Origin: a bacterium
Lineage (GTDB): Bacteria > UBP15 > UBA6099
DNA: 64,000 bases
Reading direction: 5' to 3'
Assembly (NCBI GenBank): GCA_029564595.1
Contig: JAKQPS010000044.1
Location: forward strand, 62,001-126,000
How positions within the stretch are numbered: position 1 is the first letter of the stretch; each line of letters opens with the position of its first letter. The notes beneath the pieces are model-generated. The model had not been told where the DNA came from and did not search any database. It worked only from the letters and a program-made list of their open reading frames with translations. This document shows, one piece after another, positions 6,204-58,268 of this stretch. Both the position numbers and the translations under genes were made by a program.

Positions 6204-7010
6204 TTGAAGCTGTTTTCCGTCATTGTGACGATTGCATACGCGGCAGCGTGCGTTGGATATGTGAAATTCGCGCTGATAGATGGCAAGAGCGGAGGAAAGA
6301 CGCTGCGCGCCTTGGCTGTCGGCACGGCGGCGCTCGATTTTTTCTTCCTGATGGCTCTCCGCGGCGCGGTCAAACATCCCCCTCTCACAACAGGGGCGGA
6401 AGCGACCGCCGTTCTGTCTTTCATGCTGGTCGCTATCTATCTTATTTTGGAAAGGTACTCTGAAACAAAATCCGTCGGGGCGCTTATATACGGAGCGGCG
6501 GCGGCTATGCAGGGAACGGCGACTATTTTCATAAAGATTGTTCCCGGCCCGCCCCAGTTCAACGATTCCATGCTTTTTGCGCATGTGGGAGTGGCCCTCA
6601 TAGGTTATGCGGCGTTCACGATTGCTTTCATATACAGCGCGATGTATCTGGCGATGCACAGACAGTTGAAGCGGGGCAGTTTCGGACTGCTGTTCCACAG
6701 ACTGCCTTCTCTGGAGGAGCTAGACGACACTATGTACAGGGCGGCGGTGTTCGGCTTCATAATGTTGTGCGTGTCGATACTACTGGGGTTCGCGCAGGTG
6801 GGCGGAGGGCAGTTGCTGATGGGGGACCCGAAGGTTGCCGCCACCGTTTTCACAGCGCAGATATACCTGATAATACTAGTGGCAAAAATATTTTTCGGGT
6901 GGCGCGGAGTCCGCATTGCCCTCATGTCCGCGATCGGATTCATCGCCGTCGCGGTTTCGATATTCATTCTGAACGTGGCTCCATACACGTTCCACAATAT
7001 TTATTACTGA
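6204..7010 (+). CDS. HemX/CcsA-family integral membrane protein
   Basis: A 268-residue membrane protein with about eight predicted hydrophobic helices, resembling the cytochrome c assembly (CcsA/CcmC) and HemX family. It lacks a clear tryptophan-rich WWD heme-handling motif, which fits HemX better than CcsA. A histidine in MLFAHVGVALIGYAAF and one in the C-terminal NVAPYTFHNIYY are candidates for heme contact. In Bacillus, HemX sits beside hemA and lowers GluTR abundance. Here it is likewise first in the heme operon, just before the siroheme dehydrogenase and hemA. The start is TTG at 6204 with a GGAAAGGAAG ribosome binding site. Heme transport or GluTR control is inferred from position. Confidence 0.75.
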   Translation: MKLFSVIVTIAYAAACVGYVKFALIDGKSGGKTLRALAVGTAALDFFFLMALRGAVKHPPLTTGAEATAVLSFMLVAIYLILERYSETKSVGALIYGAAAAMQGTATIFIKIVPGPPQFNDSMLFAHVGVALIGYAAFTIAFIYSAMYLAMHRQLKRGSFGLLFHRLPSLEELDDTMYRAAVFGFIMLCVSILLGFAQVGGGQLLMGDPKVAATVFTAQIYLIILVAKIFFGWRGVRIALMSAIGFIAVAVSIFILNVAPYTFHNIYY

Positions 7011-32942: not shown

Positions 32943-34530
<1,588 letters not shown>

Positions 34531-51042: not shown

Positions 51043-52593
51043 CTACGGATTCGTTTTTTCGCCCGGCGCGCGACGGTCTTTTCTAGCGCAAATCAGAATT
51101 CCATCATGAGCGGTGATCAGGTCGTAGTCATCCCTGACAAGTTTCTGTATGAAAGCGAAGAGTGGTTTCTGCGCGGCGGCGACCTCGTATTGCGGTTTGC
51201 CTTTTAACGCCGCCTCCATCCCTTCGGATAGAAGCGGGGCTTCGACGACAATCAGCTTGGGAGGATTTTCGGCTACTTCGTAAATGAATTCTCTTATTCG
51301 TTCGTCCGCGTATCCTTTAATGAAGAGCGGCTTGATGGTGGCGTGTCTGGTGGGAGCGGCGCGGCCCGAAAGCGCGTACACAAGCGCCGAATCGCTCCAG
51401 ACCAGAACCCGCTCGTCCGGGGCCGCATTCCGCGCAACGAGTTCCGCGACGAATTTCTTGTGGAACCATTCCATCGGGTCGCCGCCCGGACGCGTCCAGC
51501 CTGAATTGCCGTGAGAATGGGCCGGGGCAACGGCATGGAACGCGACCGCCGAGAGACTTATCAGAAAAAAAAGGAGAGACGCGCGGCGGCGAATCGGGGG
51601 CGAGGACATCCGGCTCTCATCGAAAAGGCTCCCCGCTCCCAGCATGACTGTCGCCGGAAGCAGAAGAGATATGAACGACGACGGGGTTAAAAAGCCGGAC
51701 ACCGGGATTGCGGCTATCTCAAAAAACAACCATGCCGCGATGGCCTGTCTGAGATGAGCCGAACCGGGTTCATCCGCCACGCGCTTTGCGCCGGAAAAAA
51801 ACAACAGAATAAGAGGCGAAACCAGCGCCGCGATTTTTACCGCGCACGAAAAGCAGAAATCGAGTCGCGGCAGCGCCCCGGCGGCGGCAATTACATGCAG
51901 GTTCGAGCCTAGCGCCTGCGCGAACGGAGCGGCTACCCCGGACGCGAACAACGCGATGGCGAGCGCCGCAGGCGGAACGATAAAACCGGCGATAGAAGCG
52001 CCCGCCCTGCCTCGAACGGCGATAAGCCCCACAACGACCAGAGCGGCTTCGCGCCCGACGAAACAGGCAGCCGCCCCCGCCGCTAGGCCCGAAGCGAACG
52101 CGGCTCTGAAACCGTCTTTTTTCGTCCTTTTCACGAGCGACAGAAAAAACAGAGCCGAGAACAAAGCCGCCCATGAGTGCGGCGAGTTAGGAGCGCCGAA
52201 GCTTGTCAGCGCCGCCGACGCCATAAAGAACCACAAAGCCGCCGTCCCTGCTCCTAAGGACGCCGCCCCTATGCTTTTCAATATAAAGAACACTGCCGCG
52301 CCCGCTCCCGCCAACCACAACAACTCCATCACTGTGGAAGTTATGAATGTCGGCCCGACAAGTTGAGCGAGGGCGTTTACGATAATCGTGCCCGGAAGGC
52401 GGTCGTACCACACATCCGCGTATGGAAGCCCCCCTTGCAGAAGACGTCCGGCGGCGTACAGGCTCAAGGATGATTCCGCATGCGCTATGTCTCCGGGGGA
52501 CTCAAGTCGGAGTCCGGCTGCCACAAGCGCGCCGCAAAGGACGACTATCAGCGTCCTAGCGCCCGCGCTTAATGTCGATTTCATTCCATCCAT
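51043..52593 (-). CDS. GT39-like polytopic membrane protein
   Basis: A membrane protein of about 516 residues with about ten hydrophobic helices and a C-terminal soluble part of about 130 residues (LLSEGMEAALKGKPQYEVAA). The start is uncertain: 52593 (MDGMKSTL) is chosen because a TATAAT box at 52618-52623 makes the earlier ATG at 52629 unlikely; 52584 is also possible. The first loop has GDIAHAESSLSLYAAGRLLQ and ADVWYDRLPGTIIVNALAQL, resembling the GT39 pattern but less clearly than the gene at 43147. Sugar and acceptor are unknown. Confidence 0.7.
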   Translation of the reverse strand: MDGMKSTLSAGARTLIVVLCGALVAAGLRLESPGDIAHAESSLSLYAAGRLLQGGLPYADVWYDRLPGTIIVNALAQLVGPTFITSTVMELLWLAGAGAAVFFILKSIGAASLGAGTAALWFFMASAALTSFGAPNSPHSWAALFSALFFLSLVKRTKKDGFRAAFASGLAAGAAACFVGREAALVVVGLIAVRGRAGASIAGFIVPPAALAIALFASGVAAPFAQALGSNLHVIAAAGALPRLDFCFSCAVKIAALVSPLILLFFSGAKRVADEPGSAHLRQAIAAWLFFEIAAIPVSGFLTPSSFISLLLPATVMLGAGSLFDESRMSSPPIRRRASLLFFLISLSAVAFHAVAPAHSHGNSGWTRPGGDPMEWFHKKFVAELVARNAAPDERVLVWSDSALVYALSGRAAPTRHATIKPLFIKGYADERIREFIYEVAENPPKLIVVEAPLLSEGMEAALKGKPQYEVAAAQKPLFAFIQKLVRDDYDLITAHDGILICARKDRRAPGEKTNP

Positions 52594-52649
52594 TTCCGGC
52601 ACCCGCTTATATCTGACATTATATAACATTAAGTAAAACCCGAATATTG

Positions 52650-52724: not shown

Positions 52725-54380
52725 ATGGTGAAGAGGAATCGCAAGGCGAACGGAATAAGAAGCGCTTCGGCGAAACTTGTGGTCGCGGCGCTAGCGATCG
52801 CGATGCTCGCCGGGTGTTCGGGCAAGCCCAAGAGCGACGACTCATCAGGCAAGCCTTTCCCAAAGCTTCAGCTTCTCTACAACATCTCGGAAAGCCACAA
52901 GCTAATTGCCGAAACCCTTCAACAGATGTGGAAAAAAGAGTTGGGCATACAGGTCGACCTAGCCAACGTCGAATGGAAAACATATCTTAAGTCTCTCCAA
53001 TCTTTAGATTATCAGATAGCCCGCGCTGGCTGGATAGGCGACTACCCCGATCCGAACACGTTCCTCGACATGTTCGTCACCGACGGAGGAAACAACCAGA
53101 CGGGATGGAGCAACGCTGAATACGACAGGCTGATAAAAGAGGCGTCGATGGAGGGAGACGCCGACGAACGCATGAAGATGTTCCACGACGCCGAAGAAAT
53201 TCTGATGAAAGAAATGCCGATAATGCCGATTTATTTCTATGTGAATAAAAACCTCGTGAAGGACTTCGTCAAGGGAATGCATTTCAATATGCGCGACCTT
53301 CACATTCTCAAATATGTCTATCTTGAGAAAAATGGAAAAGTTCTGCCGCCACAGGAGCAGGTGTTCCACTTCAACCTTTCAGCCGAGCCGGAGACGCTCG
53401 ACCCCGGACTGATGACTGGAAGCGTGGAGTTTACAATCTCGACGCAGATATTCGAGGGACTCGTGCAGTACGACCCGGACACTCTTGAACCCATTCCGGG
53501 AATGGCGGAAAGCTGGGAGGTCAACGACGAGCACACCGAATTCGTTTTCCATCTGCGCCGCGACGCCAAATGGACGAACGGCGACCCGGTTACGGCGGGC
53601 GACTTCGTTTATTCATGGAAAAGAGTTCTCGAACCGGAAACGACCGCCGAATACGCGTATCAACTCTTTTACATCAAAAACGCGAAAAAATACTATGACA
53701 AGGAAATTTCCGATTTCTCGCAGGTGGGATTGAAGGCGGTGGATGATTTCACGCTGAAGGTGACGCTTGATTCCCCGACACACTTCTGGCTCGACCTGCT
53801 CGCTTTCCACACCCTGATGCCGGTCAACAAAAACTGCGTCGAGAAATACAATGACAAATGGACGAGGCCGGAGAACATCGTGACCAACGGGCCGTTCAAG
53901 CTGACTGAATGGAAACCCAAAAGCAAACTCGTCATGGTGAAAAACCCCGGCTATTACGACGCCGCAAAAGTCCGCCTATCGAAACTGGTCGCGTACTCCG
54001 TCGAGGACAACATCACGGCGGTGAGCATGTTCGAGGCCGGACAGTCCTACTGGGTGAACACGATTCCGTTGCCGTACTCGGAGAAATATTCAAACGACCC
54101 GCAGGCGAAGAAGACGGATTTTCTTGCGGTCTATTATTACAGGTTCAACACGACGAAAGAGCCGCTGAACGATCCCCGCGTGCGCCGCGCGCTCAACCTT
54201 GCGATTAACAAAGATGAGTTGGTGAAGTTCGTGACGAAGTCTGGAGAGAAAACGGCGACGACGTTTGTGCCTCACATGCACATGAAGGACTACGAGCCGC
54301 CTCAAGGCGAGGACTATAATCCCGAAGAGGCGCGCCGACTCCTGCGGGAAGCGGGCTACGCTGTGAAGACCGGAAAATAA
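52725..54380 (+). CDS. oligopeptide-binding lipoprotein with circularly permuted domain order
   Basis: A 551-residue SBP family 5 lipoprotein. Signal peptide and lipobox end at LAGC (C31). In OppA/DppA proteins the mature chain runs from FNLSAEPETLDP through IFEGLVQYD and RRALNLAINKDELV to EEARRLLREAGY, then PKLQLLYNISESHK, IARAGWIGDYPDPNTFLDMF and MPIYFYVNKNLV to the end. Here residues 45-202 are the usual C-terminal part and residues 212-551 the usual N-terminal part. The gene stops at REAGYAVKTGK, exactly where the segment now at residue 45 would normally follow. The normal ends are joined by EKNGKVLPPQEQV. No part is missing. Start ATG 52725 follows GGGAG and the promoter at 52650. It lies 21 nt before oppB. 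Confidence 0.9.
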   Translation: MVKRNRKANGIRSASAKLVVAALAIAMLAGCSGKPKSDDSSGKPFPKLQLLYNISESHKLIAETLQQMWKKELGIQVDLANVEWKTYLKSLQSLDYQIARAGWIGDYPDPNTFLDMFVTDGGNNQTGWSNAEYDRLIKEASMEGDADERMKMFHDAEEILMKEMPIMPIYFYVNKNLVKDFVKGMHFNMRDLHILKYVYLEKNGKVLPPQEQVFHFNLSAEPETLDPGLMTGSVEFTISTQIFEGLVQYDPDTLEPIPGMAESWEVNDEHTEFVFHLRRDAKWTNGDPVTAGDFVYSWKRVLEPETTAEYAYQLFYIKNAKKYYDKEISDFSQVGLKAVDDFTLKVTLDSPTHFWLDLLAFHTLMPVNKNCVEKYNDKWTRPENIVTNGPFKLTEWKPKSKLVMVKNPGYYDAAKVRLSKLVAYSVEDNITAVSMFEAGQSYWVNTIPLPYSEKYSNDPQAKKTDFLAVYYYRFNTTKEPLNDPRVRRALNLAINKDELVKFVTKSGEKTATTFVPHMHMKDYEPPQGEDYNPEEARRLLREAGYAVKTGK

Positions 54381-54401: not shown

Positions 54402-55319
54402 ATGCTTAGATATGTCGCCCGGCGGCTGCTGACCGCCATCCCGGTCCTCTGGATCATCGTCACCATCACTTTTTTTATGATGCGTCTGGCGCCGGGCGGG
54501 CCTTTCTCCAGAGAGCGCGTCATGCCGATCGAAGTGCAGAAAATGATTGAGGAGCGCTATCACCTCGACGAGCCTCTTGTTAAACAATACTTCAGATACA
54601 TGGGCAATTTGCTCAGGGGAGACCTCGGCCCTTCGTTCAGATACAAAGACAGGTCGGTAAACGAGATACTCGCCGCAGGGCTGCCGACCACTCTGCAACT
54701 GGGGTCTCTCGCGCTGCTGTTCGCGCTATTGGTGGGCATACCCGCCGGATGTTTGGCGGCCTTCCGCCAGAATTCCGCCGTTGACTATGCGGCGATGTCT
54801 TTTTCCATGGTCGGCGTCTCCGTGCCGAACTTCGTCGTCCTCTCCACGCTTATTTATTTCTTCGCCGTGAAGTTGAAGATTCTGACTGTCAGCGGCTGGG
54901 GACGCTGGGACCAGATGATATGCCCCGTTGTGGCTCTCGGCCTGATGTACAGCGCGTATATCGCCAGACTGTCCCGCGCGGGGATGCTCGAAGTTATCCG
55001 TCAGGACTTCATACGGACCGCGCGAGCGAAGGGACTGCCCGAGAGGCTGGTCATCATCCGGCACAGCATCAAGGCCGGACTGCTGCCTGTGGTTTCCTTC
55101 CTCGGCCCGGCGGGAGCCGCCATTCTCACCGGCTCGCTTATCATAGAGACCATCTCAGGCGTTCCCGGCATAGGCCGCGAGTTCGTCAACTCCGCGCTGA
55201 ACCGGGACTACACTCTTACCATTGGCACGGTGATTCTATACAGCGGATTTCTGATTATATTCAATCTTGCGGTGGATATCGTTTACGCATTTCTGGATCC
55301 GAGAATTGTTTACGAATGA
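54402..55319 (+). CDS. oppB: oligopeptide ABC transporter permease OppB/DppB
   Basis: A 305-residue permease with six membrane helices. The typical N-terminus is MLRYVARRLLTAIPVLWIIV, with an extracytoplasmic loop ending in RGDLGPSFRYKDRSVNEI. The EAA coupling loop appears as RTARAKGLPERLVIIRHSIK, with the conserved Ala-Lys-Gly. The C-terminal region IIETISGVPGIGREFVNSAL is standard. Conventional domain order and length, in contrast to the binding protein just upstream. Confidence 0.95.
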   Translation: MLRYVARRLLTAIPVLWIIVTITFFMMRLAPGGPFSRERVMPIEVQKMIEERYHLDEPLVKQYFRYMGNLLRGDLGPSFRYKDRSVNEILAAGLPTTLQLGSLALLFALLVGIPAGCLAAFRQNSAVDYAAMSFSMVGVSVPNFVVLSTLIYFFAVKLKILTVSGWGRWDQMICPVVALGLMYSAYIARLSRAGMLEVIRQDFIRTARAKGLPERLVIIRHSIKAGLLPVVSFLGPAGAAILTGSLIIETISGVPGIGREFVNSALNRDYTLTIGTVILYSGFLIIFNLAVDIVYAFLDPRIVYE

Positions 55320-55359: not shown

Positions 55360-56277
55360 ATGACGAACGATAATGAAAAAACCAGAGCGGCGGCGGACAT
55401 CCAGCCGGTGAAAGGCACGAGCCTCTGGAAGGACGCGTGGCGTAGGCTGTTGAAAAACAGAATGGCGGTGGCGGGCGGCGCGCTGCTGATACTCATCGCC
55501 TGCGCGGCGATCCTCGCTCCTGCCCTCACCCCATACGCTTTCGACGAGATACACCTTTCCGACGGCAACCATCCGCCATCGCGGGAATATCCTCTGGGAG
55601 CCGACCATCTCGGACGCGACCTTCTGACCAGAATCCTGTACGGCGGACGCGTTTCTCTGGCGGTGGGCATCGTCGCCACTTTCGTCAGCATCATAATCGG
55701 CGTCAGCTACGGGGCAGCCGCCGGATACCTCGGCGGCCGCGCGGACAACATAATGATGCGCTTTGTCGACATCCTTTACGGCCTGCCTTTCATGTTTCTT
55801 GTCATCCTGATGATGGTGATATTCCACAACGCCCCGGCGGAAAAGAAACTTTACCTGCTGTTCATCGGGCTTGGCGCGGTGCAGTGGCTGACGATGAGCC
55901 GCATAACAAGAGGCCAGACTCTTTCTATAAAAACGAAAGAGTACATACTAGCCGCGCGCACTTCAGGCGCCGGCGTGTTCCGGATCATCTCCCGGCATGT
56001 CATCCCGAACCTGCTCGGCCCAGTGATTGTTTACGCGACCCTGACCGTCCCGGCGGTTATGCTCGAGGAAGCGTTCCTGAGTTTCCTCGGCCTCGGCGTT
56101 CAGGCCCCGATGGCAAGCTGGGGGTCTCTCGCTTCCGACGGTCGGCAATCGCTGGACACCTATCCATGGCAGATGATTTTTCCGGGACTCGCTCTCGCGA
56201 TAACCCTGTTCTCCCTCAACTTTCTGGGAGACGGCCTGAGAGACGCGCTCGACCCGCAGATGAAAGACCAGAAATAA
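55360..56277 (+). CDS. oppC: oligopeptide ABC transporter permease OppC/DppC
   Basis: A 305-residue permease, second of the pair. An N-terminal cytoplasmic segment of about 35 residues is followed by a first helix (MAVAGGALLILIACAAILAP), the motif PLGADHLGRDLLTRILYGGR, the core helices, and the EAA-type loop ILAARTSGAGVFRIISRHVI. The C-terminus (LEEAFLSFLGLGVQAPMASW, FLGDGLRDALDPQ) is typical of DppC/OppC. It sits 40 nt after oppB. Confidence 0.95.
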   Translation: MTNDNEKTRAAADIQPVKGTSLWKDAWRRLLKNRMAVAGGALLILIACAAILAPALTPYAFDEIHLSDGNHPPSREYPLGADHLGRDLLTRILYGGRVSLAVGIVATFVSIIIGVSYGAAAGYLGGRADNIMMRFVDILYGLPFMFLVILMMVIFHNAPAEKKLYLLFIGLGAVQWLTMSRITRGQTLSIKTKEYILAARTSGAGVFRIISRHVIPNLLGPVIVYATLTVPAVMLEEAFLSFLGLGVQAPMASWGSLASDGRQSLDTYPWQMIFPGLALAITLFSLNFLGDGLRDALDPQMKDQK

Positions 56278-56298: not shown

Positions 56299-57294
56299 AT
56301 GGCCGAACCGGTACTGTCAGTTCAAAACCTCGTCACCAGATTCCACACGGCGGACGGAGTGGTGCGCGCGGTGGACGGAGTTTCGTTCGACCTCATGCCG
56401 GGCGGCTCGCTAGGCATTGTCGGCGAAAGCGGCTGCGGAAAAAGCGTCACCCACCTCTCCTTCCTCGGACTCATCCCCCAGCCTCCCGGGAAAATCGAGG
56501 GCGGCAAGGCGCTGTTCAAGGGCAAAAACCTGCTAGCGATGAAACCGGGAGAGTTGCGCAAAGTCCGAGGCAACGACATCGCGGTGATTTTTCAAGACCC
56601 TATGACTTCGCTAAACCCTGTGCTGAAAATAAGCCTCCAGATGACAGAAGGCATGATGATTCACAAAGGAGCGTCGAGAGCGGAAGCGGAGGCGCGCGCG
56701 CTTGAACTGCTGCGCGCCGTCGGCATTCCTTCTCCTGAAAAAAGATTCCACGACTACCCGCACCAGTTCAGCGGAGGGATGCGGCAGCGAGTGATGATAG
56801 CTATGGCCCTGATGTGCGAGCCTGCCGCGCTCATCGCCGACGAGCCGACTACGGCGCTCGATGTGACCATTCAGGCGCAAATCCTCGAACTCATCCAGAA
56901 AATGAGAAAAGAGACTGGCGTGGCAGTCATCCTCATCACCCATGACTTGGGCGTGGTGGCTAGCGTGTGCGAGGACATTCTGGTGATGTACGCGGGGCGA
57001 GTAGTGGAAAGCGCCGCGACCGGCCCCCTCTTCGCGCGTCCTCTTCATCCTTACACCTTCAGCCTGCTCCGCTCCATCCCCCGGCTGGACGCGGAACGAA
57101 AAGAGCGCCTCTTCTCCATTCCCGGACTGCCTCCCGACCTCATTCACAACCCGCCGGGATGCAATTTCAATCCGCGTTGCCCGTTCGCGGTGAAACGCTG
57201 CTTCAGCGAAGAACCGCCCCTGACGGAGATCGAACCCGGAAGAAAAGTCGCCTGCTGGGTGGATATCGAATCGAAAAAGGAGCGCGCCACATGA
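56299..57294 (+). CDS. oppD: oligopeptide ABC transporter ATP-binding protein OppD/DppD
   Basis: A 331-residue ABC ATPase. Walker A is [15 protein letters not shown], the signature [17 protein letters not shown], Walker [15 protein letters not shown] and the switch histidine is in [10 protein letters not shown]. The C-terminal oligopeptide/dipeptide extension carries the cysteine motif [21 protein letters not shown]-x5-C-x6-C as in OppD/DppD proteins that bind an iron-sulfur cluster. Its stop overlaps the oppF start by 4 nt. Confidence 0.95.
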
Positions 57295-58268
57295 GTGTGT
57301 CTCCTCTGCTATCGCTCCGTGACGTCAAAGTCCACTTCCCAATCCGGACGGGCTTCATCCGACGCAGAATAACAGGCTTCATCCGCGCTGTGAACGGCGT
57401 CTCTTTCGATATTGAAAAAGGGGAAACCCTCGGACTGGTCGGAGAAAGCGGATGCGGAAAAACCACCGCTGCCAAGGCCATCCTCGGTCTTGAAAAAACG
57501 GCGGCGGGAGAAATCACTTTCGACGGAAAGAACATCGCAGGACTACGCGGCGAAAATCTCCGCATGATTTACAAAGACCTTCAGGTGATTTATCAGGACC
57601 CGTACGCGTCTCTGAACCCGCGCATGACAGTGCTCCAGATAGTCACCGAGCCTCTCGCTTGTTTCAATGTAATGAACGCGCGGGAAAGGCAGGCCCGCGC
57701 CGAGGAACTTCTAGAAACCGTCGGGCTTGACCCGCGCTACATAAGGAGATATCCACACGAGTTCAGCGGCGGCCAGCGGCAGCGCATCGGCATCGCCCGC
57801 GCGCTCGCTCTCAATCCCTCGCTGATTATCTGCGACGAGCCGGTGAGCGCTCTGGACGTCTCCATCCGCGCGCAGATAATAAACCTGCTCGAAGACCTGC
57901 AAAACAAATACCACTTCAGCTATCTTTTTATTGCTCACGACCTCAGCGTAGTGCGGCACATCAGCAACCGCGTCGCCGTCATGTATCTTGGCAAAATCGT
58001 AGAAATAGCCGACTCGAAGGACATCTACGCGTCGCCCGCTCACCCGTACACGAAAGCTCTTCTCTCCGCCATACCGATACCCGACCCGGAAGTGGAGGCA
58101 AAGCGGCGGCGCATCATCCTTACAGGAGACGTCCCCGGGCCGGATTCAGAAATTCCCGGATGCGCGTTCGCGTCCCGCTGCCCGGTCAAGATCGACCGTT
58201 GCGAAAAGGAATCCCCCGCGCTCCGAGAAATCGCCCCCGGCCACTCGGCCTCATGCTTCCTCGCATAA
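57291..58268 (+). CDS. oppF: oligopeptide ABC transporter ATP-binding protein OppF/DppF
   Basis: Start ATG 57291 (ATGA overlap with oppD, AAGGAG upstream) gives the standard 325-residue ATPase. It has a family-typical N-terminal stretch containing KVHFPIRTGFIRRRITGF. Walker A is [17 protein letters not shown], the signature EFSGGQRQRIGIARALA, Walker B LIICDEPVSALDVS and the switch ILIAHD-type histidine is in LFIAHDLSVV. The C-terminal cysteine motif GCAFASRCPVKIDRCEKESP is present. It ends the operon, so both ATPases and both permeases are intact. Confidence 0.95.
   Translation: MSVSPLLSLRDVKVHFPIRTGFIRRRITGFIRAVNGVSFDIEKGETLGLVGESGCGKTTAAKAILGLEKTAAGEITFDGKNIAGLRGENLRMIYKDLQVIYQDPYASLNPRMTVLQIVTEPLACFNVMNARERQARAEELLETVGLDPRYIRRYPHEFSGGQRQRIGIARALALNPSLIICDEPVSALDVSIRAQIINLLEDLQNKYHFSYLFIAHDLSVVRHISNRVAVMYLGKIVEIADSKDIYASPAHPYTKALLSAIPIPDPEVEAKRRRIILTGDVPGPDSEIPGCAFASRCPVKIDRCEKESPALREIAPGHSASCFLA

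Follow-up and report, generated by a model that had tools for sequence, protein, structure and literature searches.

An oppBCDF operon led by an OppA-type peptide-binding lipoprotein gene in circularly permuted order

Natural circular permutants of large, dynamic three-domain proteins are rare. The closest described case is TpMglB-2 (Tp0684) from Treponema pallidum, a sugar-binding lipoprotein of cluster B ('Type Ic / Cluster Bc') with a naturally occurring circular permutation, which was recognised from the crystal structure; the protein binds glucose and changes conformation, ligand binding is functional in vitro, and the arrangement occurs in several lineages (PMC4990184). The statement in an earlier note on the DNA studied here, that no such rearrangement was known for this family, stands for OppA and cluster C, for which searches of the open-access literature yielded no report of a permuted protein, but would not hold for solute-binding proteins generally. 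Here, we analyse a gene at 52725-54380 of a 64,000-nucleotide stretch of bacterial DNA (the window, genome G000) and identify its product, with high confidence, as an oligopeptide-binding lipoprotein of the OppA type (SBP family 5, cluster C) whose circular permutation is natural and genuine, with the mechanism and origin proposed below.

The gene lies on the plus strand as an uninterrupted frame that translates to 551 residues, in which a signal peptide with a lipobox (Cys31) is followed by the C-terminal ~160 residues of an OppA and then by its first ~335 residues; C-terminal OppA motifs are found at residues 45-202 and N-terminal OppA motifs at 212-546. This placement of the terminal motifs ahead of the initial ones had been read by eye in the earlier note, and both the PF00496 and the PDB alignments bear it out. 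The protein matches PF00496 (SBP_bac_5) in hmmscan at 309.6 bits (cut-off 32.4) over two stretches, the best of which pairs residues 255-549 with profile positions 1-282, while a profile search of the contigs locates the profile end (279-367) upstream, at window positions 52824-53096 (G000:C57:114824-115096), and the split-profile search that had been suggested returned two stretches in the expected reversed order. The top PDB matches in phmmer are OppA and DppE proteins, each aligned as two stretches in swapped order, and this two-part similarity to OppA structures is far above chance (E 3.5e-101). Residues 212-527 and 40-184 align with residues 20-337 and 363-508 of Bacillus subtilis OppA (8are_A), and residues 212-546 and 48-186 with residues 13-354 and 361-499 of S. 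Typhimurium OppA (1b05). A collinear full-length alignment to a normal OppA, which the earlier note had named as refuting its reading, does not exist in the PF00496, phmmer or relatives' comparisons; relative to SBP family 5 the stretches are reversed, and the full complement of fold segments from a single OppA is present. As the equivalents of residue 546 and residue 41-42 are separated by only 0-3 residues in normal-order relatives, one loop has been cut, the fold is complete and nothing is doubled, in agreement with the open frame without a missing part that had been claimed. The new ends belong to a Gly-rich loop that leads from the helix '...EEARRLLREAGY' to the strand 'KLQLLYN' (OppA 354-361). 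The features of the gene and its surroundings are collected in Table 1.

Table 1. Features of the permuted oppA gene and its operon in the window, and the group B loci.
Feature	Coordinates or genomes	Strand	Basis
Signal peptide of permuted OppA, residues 1-30	52725..52814	+	translation; genus-wide; signal-like start also in L006, L007
Lipobox Cys31 (LAGC, residues 28-31), presumed lipid anchor	52815..52817	+	sequence
Short flexible stretch from anchor to new fold start, residues 32-41	52818..52847	+	pLDDT low over 1-39
C-terminal OppA part, now first, residues 42-202; includes D106	52848..53330	+	phmmer/HMM/BLAST alignments
Native C-terminus/mature N-terminus join, residues 203-211, NGKVLPPQE	53331..53357	+	normal-order relatives; confident model
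N-terminal OppA part, now second, residues 212-546	53358..54362	+	phmmer/HMM/BLAST alignments
New C-terminal tail, AVKTGK-family end, residues 547-551 + stop codon	54363..54380	+	translation; other group A ends
oppB-type permease	54402..55319	+	PF00528, PF19300
oppC-type permease	55360..56277	+	PF00528, OppC_N PF12911
oppD-type ATPase	56299..57294	+	PF00005, oligo_HPY PF08352
Frame with oppF-type ATPase	56967..58268	+	PF00005, oligo_HPY, matches from residue 143
Group B permuted OppAs, loci L108-L116	G794, G593, G675, G855, G518, G748, G650, G843, G660		

The native ends are joined through the sequence KYVYLEK-NGKVLPPQEQVFHFN. The segment EKNGKVLPPQ had been taken for a linker, an interpretation that has to be given up: normal-order relatives terminate in, for example, LHPLKEAYLEK, and the mature part of the normal-order relative L087 starts with CGSDSDYFGKVLPPKGQVLRFNN, so the segment comprises two native tails fused, the native C-terminal tail (KYVYLEK) and the native mature N-terminal segment, and is not new. 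The L087 protein itself (L087:2058-4175, minus strand, genome G354) carries an insertion of ~130 residues near OppA 125.

An AlphaFold2 model of modest confidence (pTM 0.67, mean pLDDT 73.5) was obtained from a shallow, 14-row alignment of the permuted congeners and the separate halves of normal relatives. The join is ordered in this model (pLDDT 92 over residues 201-210 and 85 over 211-220), and the new ends are flanked by a helix (533-542) and a strand (48-52). Foldseek returned OppA structures as the best matches to this model, with TM ~0.55 and ~358 columns alignable in sequence order, a restricted span that is expected of a sequence-ordered method if the other ~160 residues are swapped. 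Asp419 of OppA holds the amino group of the peptide. This ligand aspartate is conserved, D106 of the permuted protein being aligned with Asp419 of S. Typhimurium OppA. The lipobox (LAGC, residues 28-31) was recognised by eye behind the signal peptide, and a cysteine occupies the Cys31 position in six of the six proteins of the phylum described below (group A); it is a sound deduction that the putative lipid anchor would now grip the protein via another lobe.

The oppBCDF genes that had been reported intact 3' of the permuted gene are confirmed by their Pfam matches, and the binding protein is encoded together with oppB, oppC, oppD and oppF as in an Opp importer. The true start of oppF is probably near 57.3 kb, the frame otherwise overlapping oppD. 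At every group A locus checked oppB follows the permuted oppA, with oppC and oppD where the contig extends. No normal-order OppA for the opp operon was found in the group A genomes, in which the permuted protein is the only close OppA; the single other PF00496 protein of G000 (L002) is in normal order, remote (24% identity) and unlinked to the opp operon. In G006, the remaining genome examined from the phylum and 78% complete, oppCDF is present and neither oppA nor an adjacent oppB was detected, and an unrelated divergent gene precedes oppC of this cluster (L097). Divergent to the opp operon of the window, 51043-52629 (minus strand) encodes a 528-residue protein that has no Pfam match and is 89-91% conserved in the three congeners checked; the window also contains a complete bacterial 16S rRNA gene (RF00177) at 32954-34529, on the minus strand.

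The search for homologues of the same order, also suggested at the outset, led to independent assemblies: the same permuted, full-length order is present in six species (group A) from three genera and two families of a small phylum, at 63-98% identity. Four of the four species examined in the genus have it at 96-98% identity, the three congeners being public MAGs of separate projects (UBA6099, ADurb.Bin236, USCA_metabat.19), and it recurs at 63% identity in G004 and G005, one from a second genus within the family and the other from a second family within the order. The gene is under purifying selection, with pairwise dN/dS values within the genus of 0.03-0.10 over the whole gene, based on 35-115 synonymous differences per species pair, and low values in each half.

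To look further afield, a profile (A1) that spans the join of the native ends, and so detects permutants cut outside the profile, was used in a survey that covered ~930 genomes at strict thresholds, and the frequencies that follow are lower bounds. Across 386 genomes spread over Bacteria, an unbroken match to the join was found, among the matches listed, in the six of the phylum only; the few other listed matches across the join in these 386 genomes are tandem genes with stops or reach into the signal region. The large phylum of G058 was represented by 399 genomes, nine of which gave an unbroken join match (group B, Table 1). The group B members that were extracted are permuted OppAs whose cut falls in the loop that is also cut in group A, and oppBCDF follows them; the genomes of two of the nine species are single contigs. 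They resemble the protein of the window in their OppA type, cut loop and downstream oppBCDF and differ from it in belonging to another phylum, in their 37-44% identity and in their start, which is a Sec signal peptide ending in ...A-AKPLPK without a lipobox; the AU test described below assigns them a separate origin. The group B gene of G843 (L115), in one of the single-contig genomes, contains one in-frame TGA at ~7006-7008 on the minus strand ('PIYW*SRL' against 'PVYWRSRL' in G660), which is either a nonsense change or a sequencing error. The idea that permutation is a general adaptation to the lipid anchor is unsupported, as anchoring cannot be the general reason when group B shares the cut loop and yet starts with an ordinary Sec signal peptide that lacks a lipobox.

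Two further permutants (groups C and D) are known from one sequence each. The OppA-type lipoprotein at L119:4984-6786, on a plasmid whose record (OY725879.1) bears the name Subdoligranulum variabile, is cut near OppA residues 130-135 and lies directly after oppBCDF; it has Ser-rich stretches at both ends, and no feature is annotated there in the copy of the record that was examined. That at L150:1526-3346 (G510, minus strand) is cut near OppA 284-286 and lies after oppF. Both share with the protein of the window the OppA type, the joined native ends, the lipobox and the adjoining opp genes, and differ from it in using two other cut loops. Viral contigs scanned with the join profile yielded no relative, and the 38 matches in phage records, chiefly those of Enterococcus and Listeria, are of normal type or partial.

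A single ancient permutation, passed on by inheritance or transfer, could in principle lie behind all of these proteins, and the cut loop shared by groups A and B is what would be expected of it. For maximum-likelihood trees, all sequences were first rearranged by script into the same order. Group A, group B and the pair C/D are each placed with normal-order relatives of their own, on starred branches, such that the permuted label requires three changes on the tree. AU tests reject a clade of A and B (p 0.0006 for the first data set and far lower for the second), as well as clades of B with C/D and of A with C/D, and C and D are moreover cut elsewhere. A common origin is therefore very unlikely, and permuted OppAs arose at least three separate times. 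Groups C and D are sisters on the tree, cut at different loops; they may reflect two events or a fused tandem ancestor that was trimmed separately.

If two distinct proteins of family 5, or fragments of them, had been fused, instead of one gene being permuted, this would also give two separate homology blocks, as are seen here, and could account for the somewhat unequal G+C of the two halves (0.47 and 0.54). The halves nevertheless sum to one complete OppA with neither overlap nor gap, and in separate trees of each half the six group A proteins stay together as a single clade, whose place within the family agrees between the halves with no supported conflict, making such a fusion highly improbable. 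That the assembly merged a tandem pair of normal oppA genes into a seemingly swapped order deserves mention, since such tandems occur commonly (L037, L085, L088) and all group A genomes are MAGs. Both joins are, however, in frame and in the same order in the six separately assembled species, and the order recurs in the nine species of another phylum, including the two with single-contig genomes; because the order is conserved across species, misassembly is excluded for groups A and B, and as a general explanation it is barely credible. That the gene is decaying or has lost its function, with a frame that stays open by chance, for which only the internal TGA of G843 might speak, is hardly to be entertained given the low dN/dS, the conservation across families with the ligand aspartate kept, and the position of the only close OppA of group A genomes at the head of an intact opp operon.

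The permuted OppA is real and conserved, and very probably functional. It would be exported and lipidated on Cys31, and would adopt the ordinary two-lobed OppA fold with the native ends fused and the new ends placed in domain III, in a loop that leads from a helix to a strand. Peptides would be bound between the lobes, with D106 standing for OppA Asp419, and handed over to the adjoining OppBCDF importer. As to its origin, we propose that a mature OppA was duplicated in tandem and in frame, after which the outer halves may have been lost and the first signal peptide retained. Tandem oppA genes elsewhere make this duplicate-and-trim route plausible: in L085 (G274) and L086 (G123) tandem oppA genes share one frame and are parted by one stop codon, and a Verrucomicrobia MAG (L037:4645-10019) has a head-to-tail row of three oppA genes in normal order, of which the first and second overlap in their frames. 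Such in-frame tandems are plausible candidates for intermediates of the permutation. More tentatively, and with considerable doubt, the at least three origins and at least three cut loops might mean that proteins of the OppA type form a class that readily becomes circularly permuted in nature, in which the use of the same loop by two unrelated groups would reflect selection on folding, export or OppBC docking beyond a merely permissive loop.

Repeated, separate permutations with close normal-order relatives and intact operons make it possible to ask what an importer needs of the chain order, ends and anchor of its binding protein. Annotation based on order returns two partial PF00496 hits, and the permuted class would be overlooked; its members also offer end points already tested by evolution for the design of peptide-binding sensors and fusions. 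Compared with the OppA/DppE-type proteins of family 5 (8are, 1b05), the protein of the window retains all fold segments, the Asp419 equivalent, the place at the head of oppBCDF, the signal peptide and the lipobox, and differs in that its parts are swapped, with the native ends joined and the new ends between OppA 354 and 361. Compared with TpMglB-2, it is likewise a naturally permuted binding lipoprotein of an ABC importer found in several lineages; it falls outside 'Cluster Bc', its homology being to cluster C peptide-binding proteins, and whereas TpMglB-2 is a cluster B sugar-binding protein cut at another position, the OppA-type protein described here belongs to cluster C and was permuted independently.
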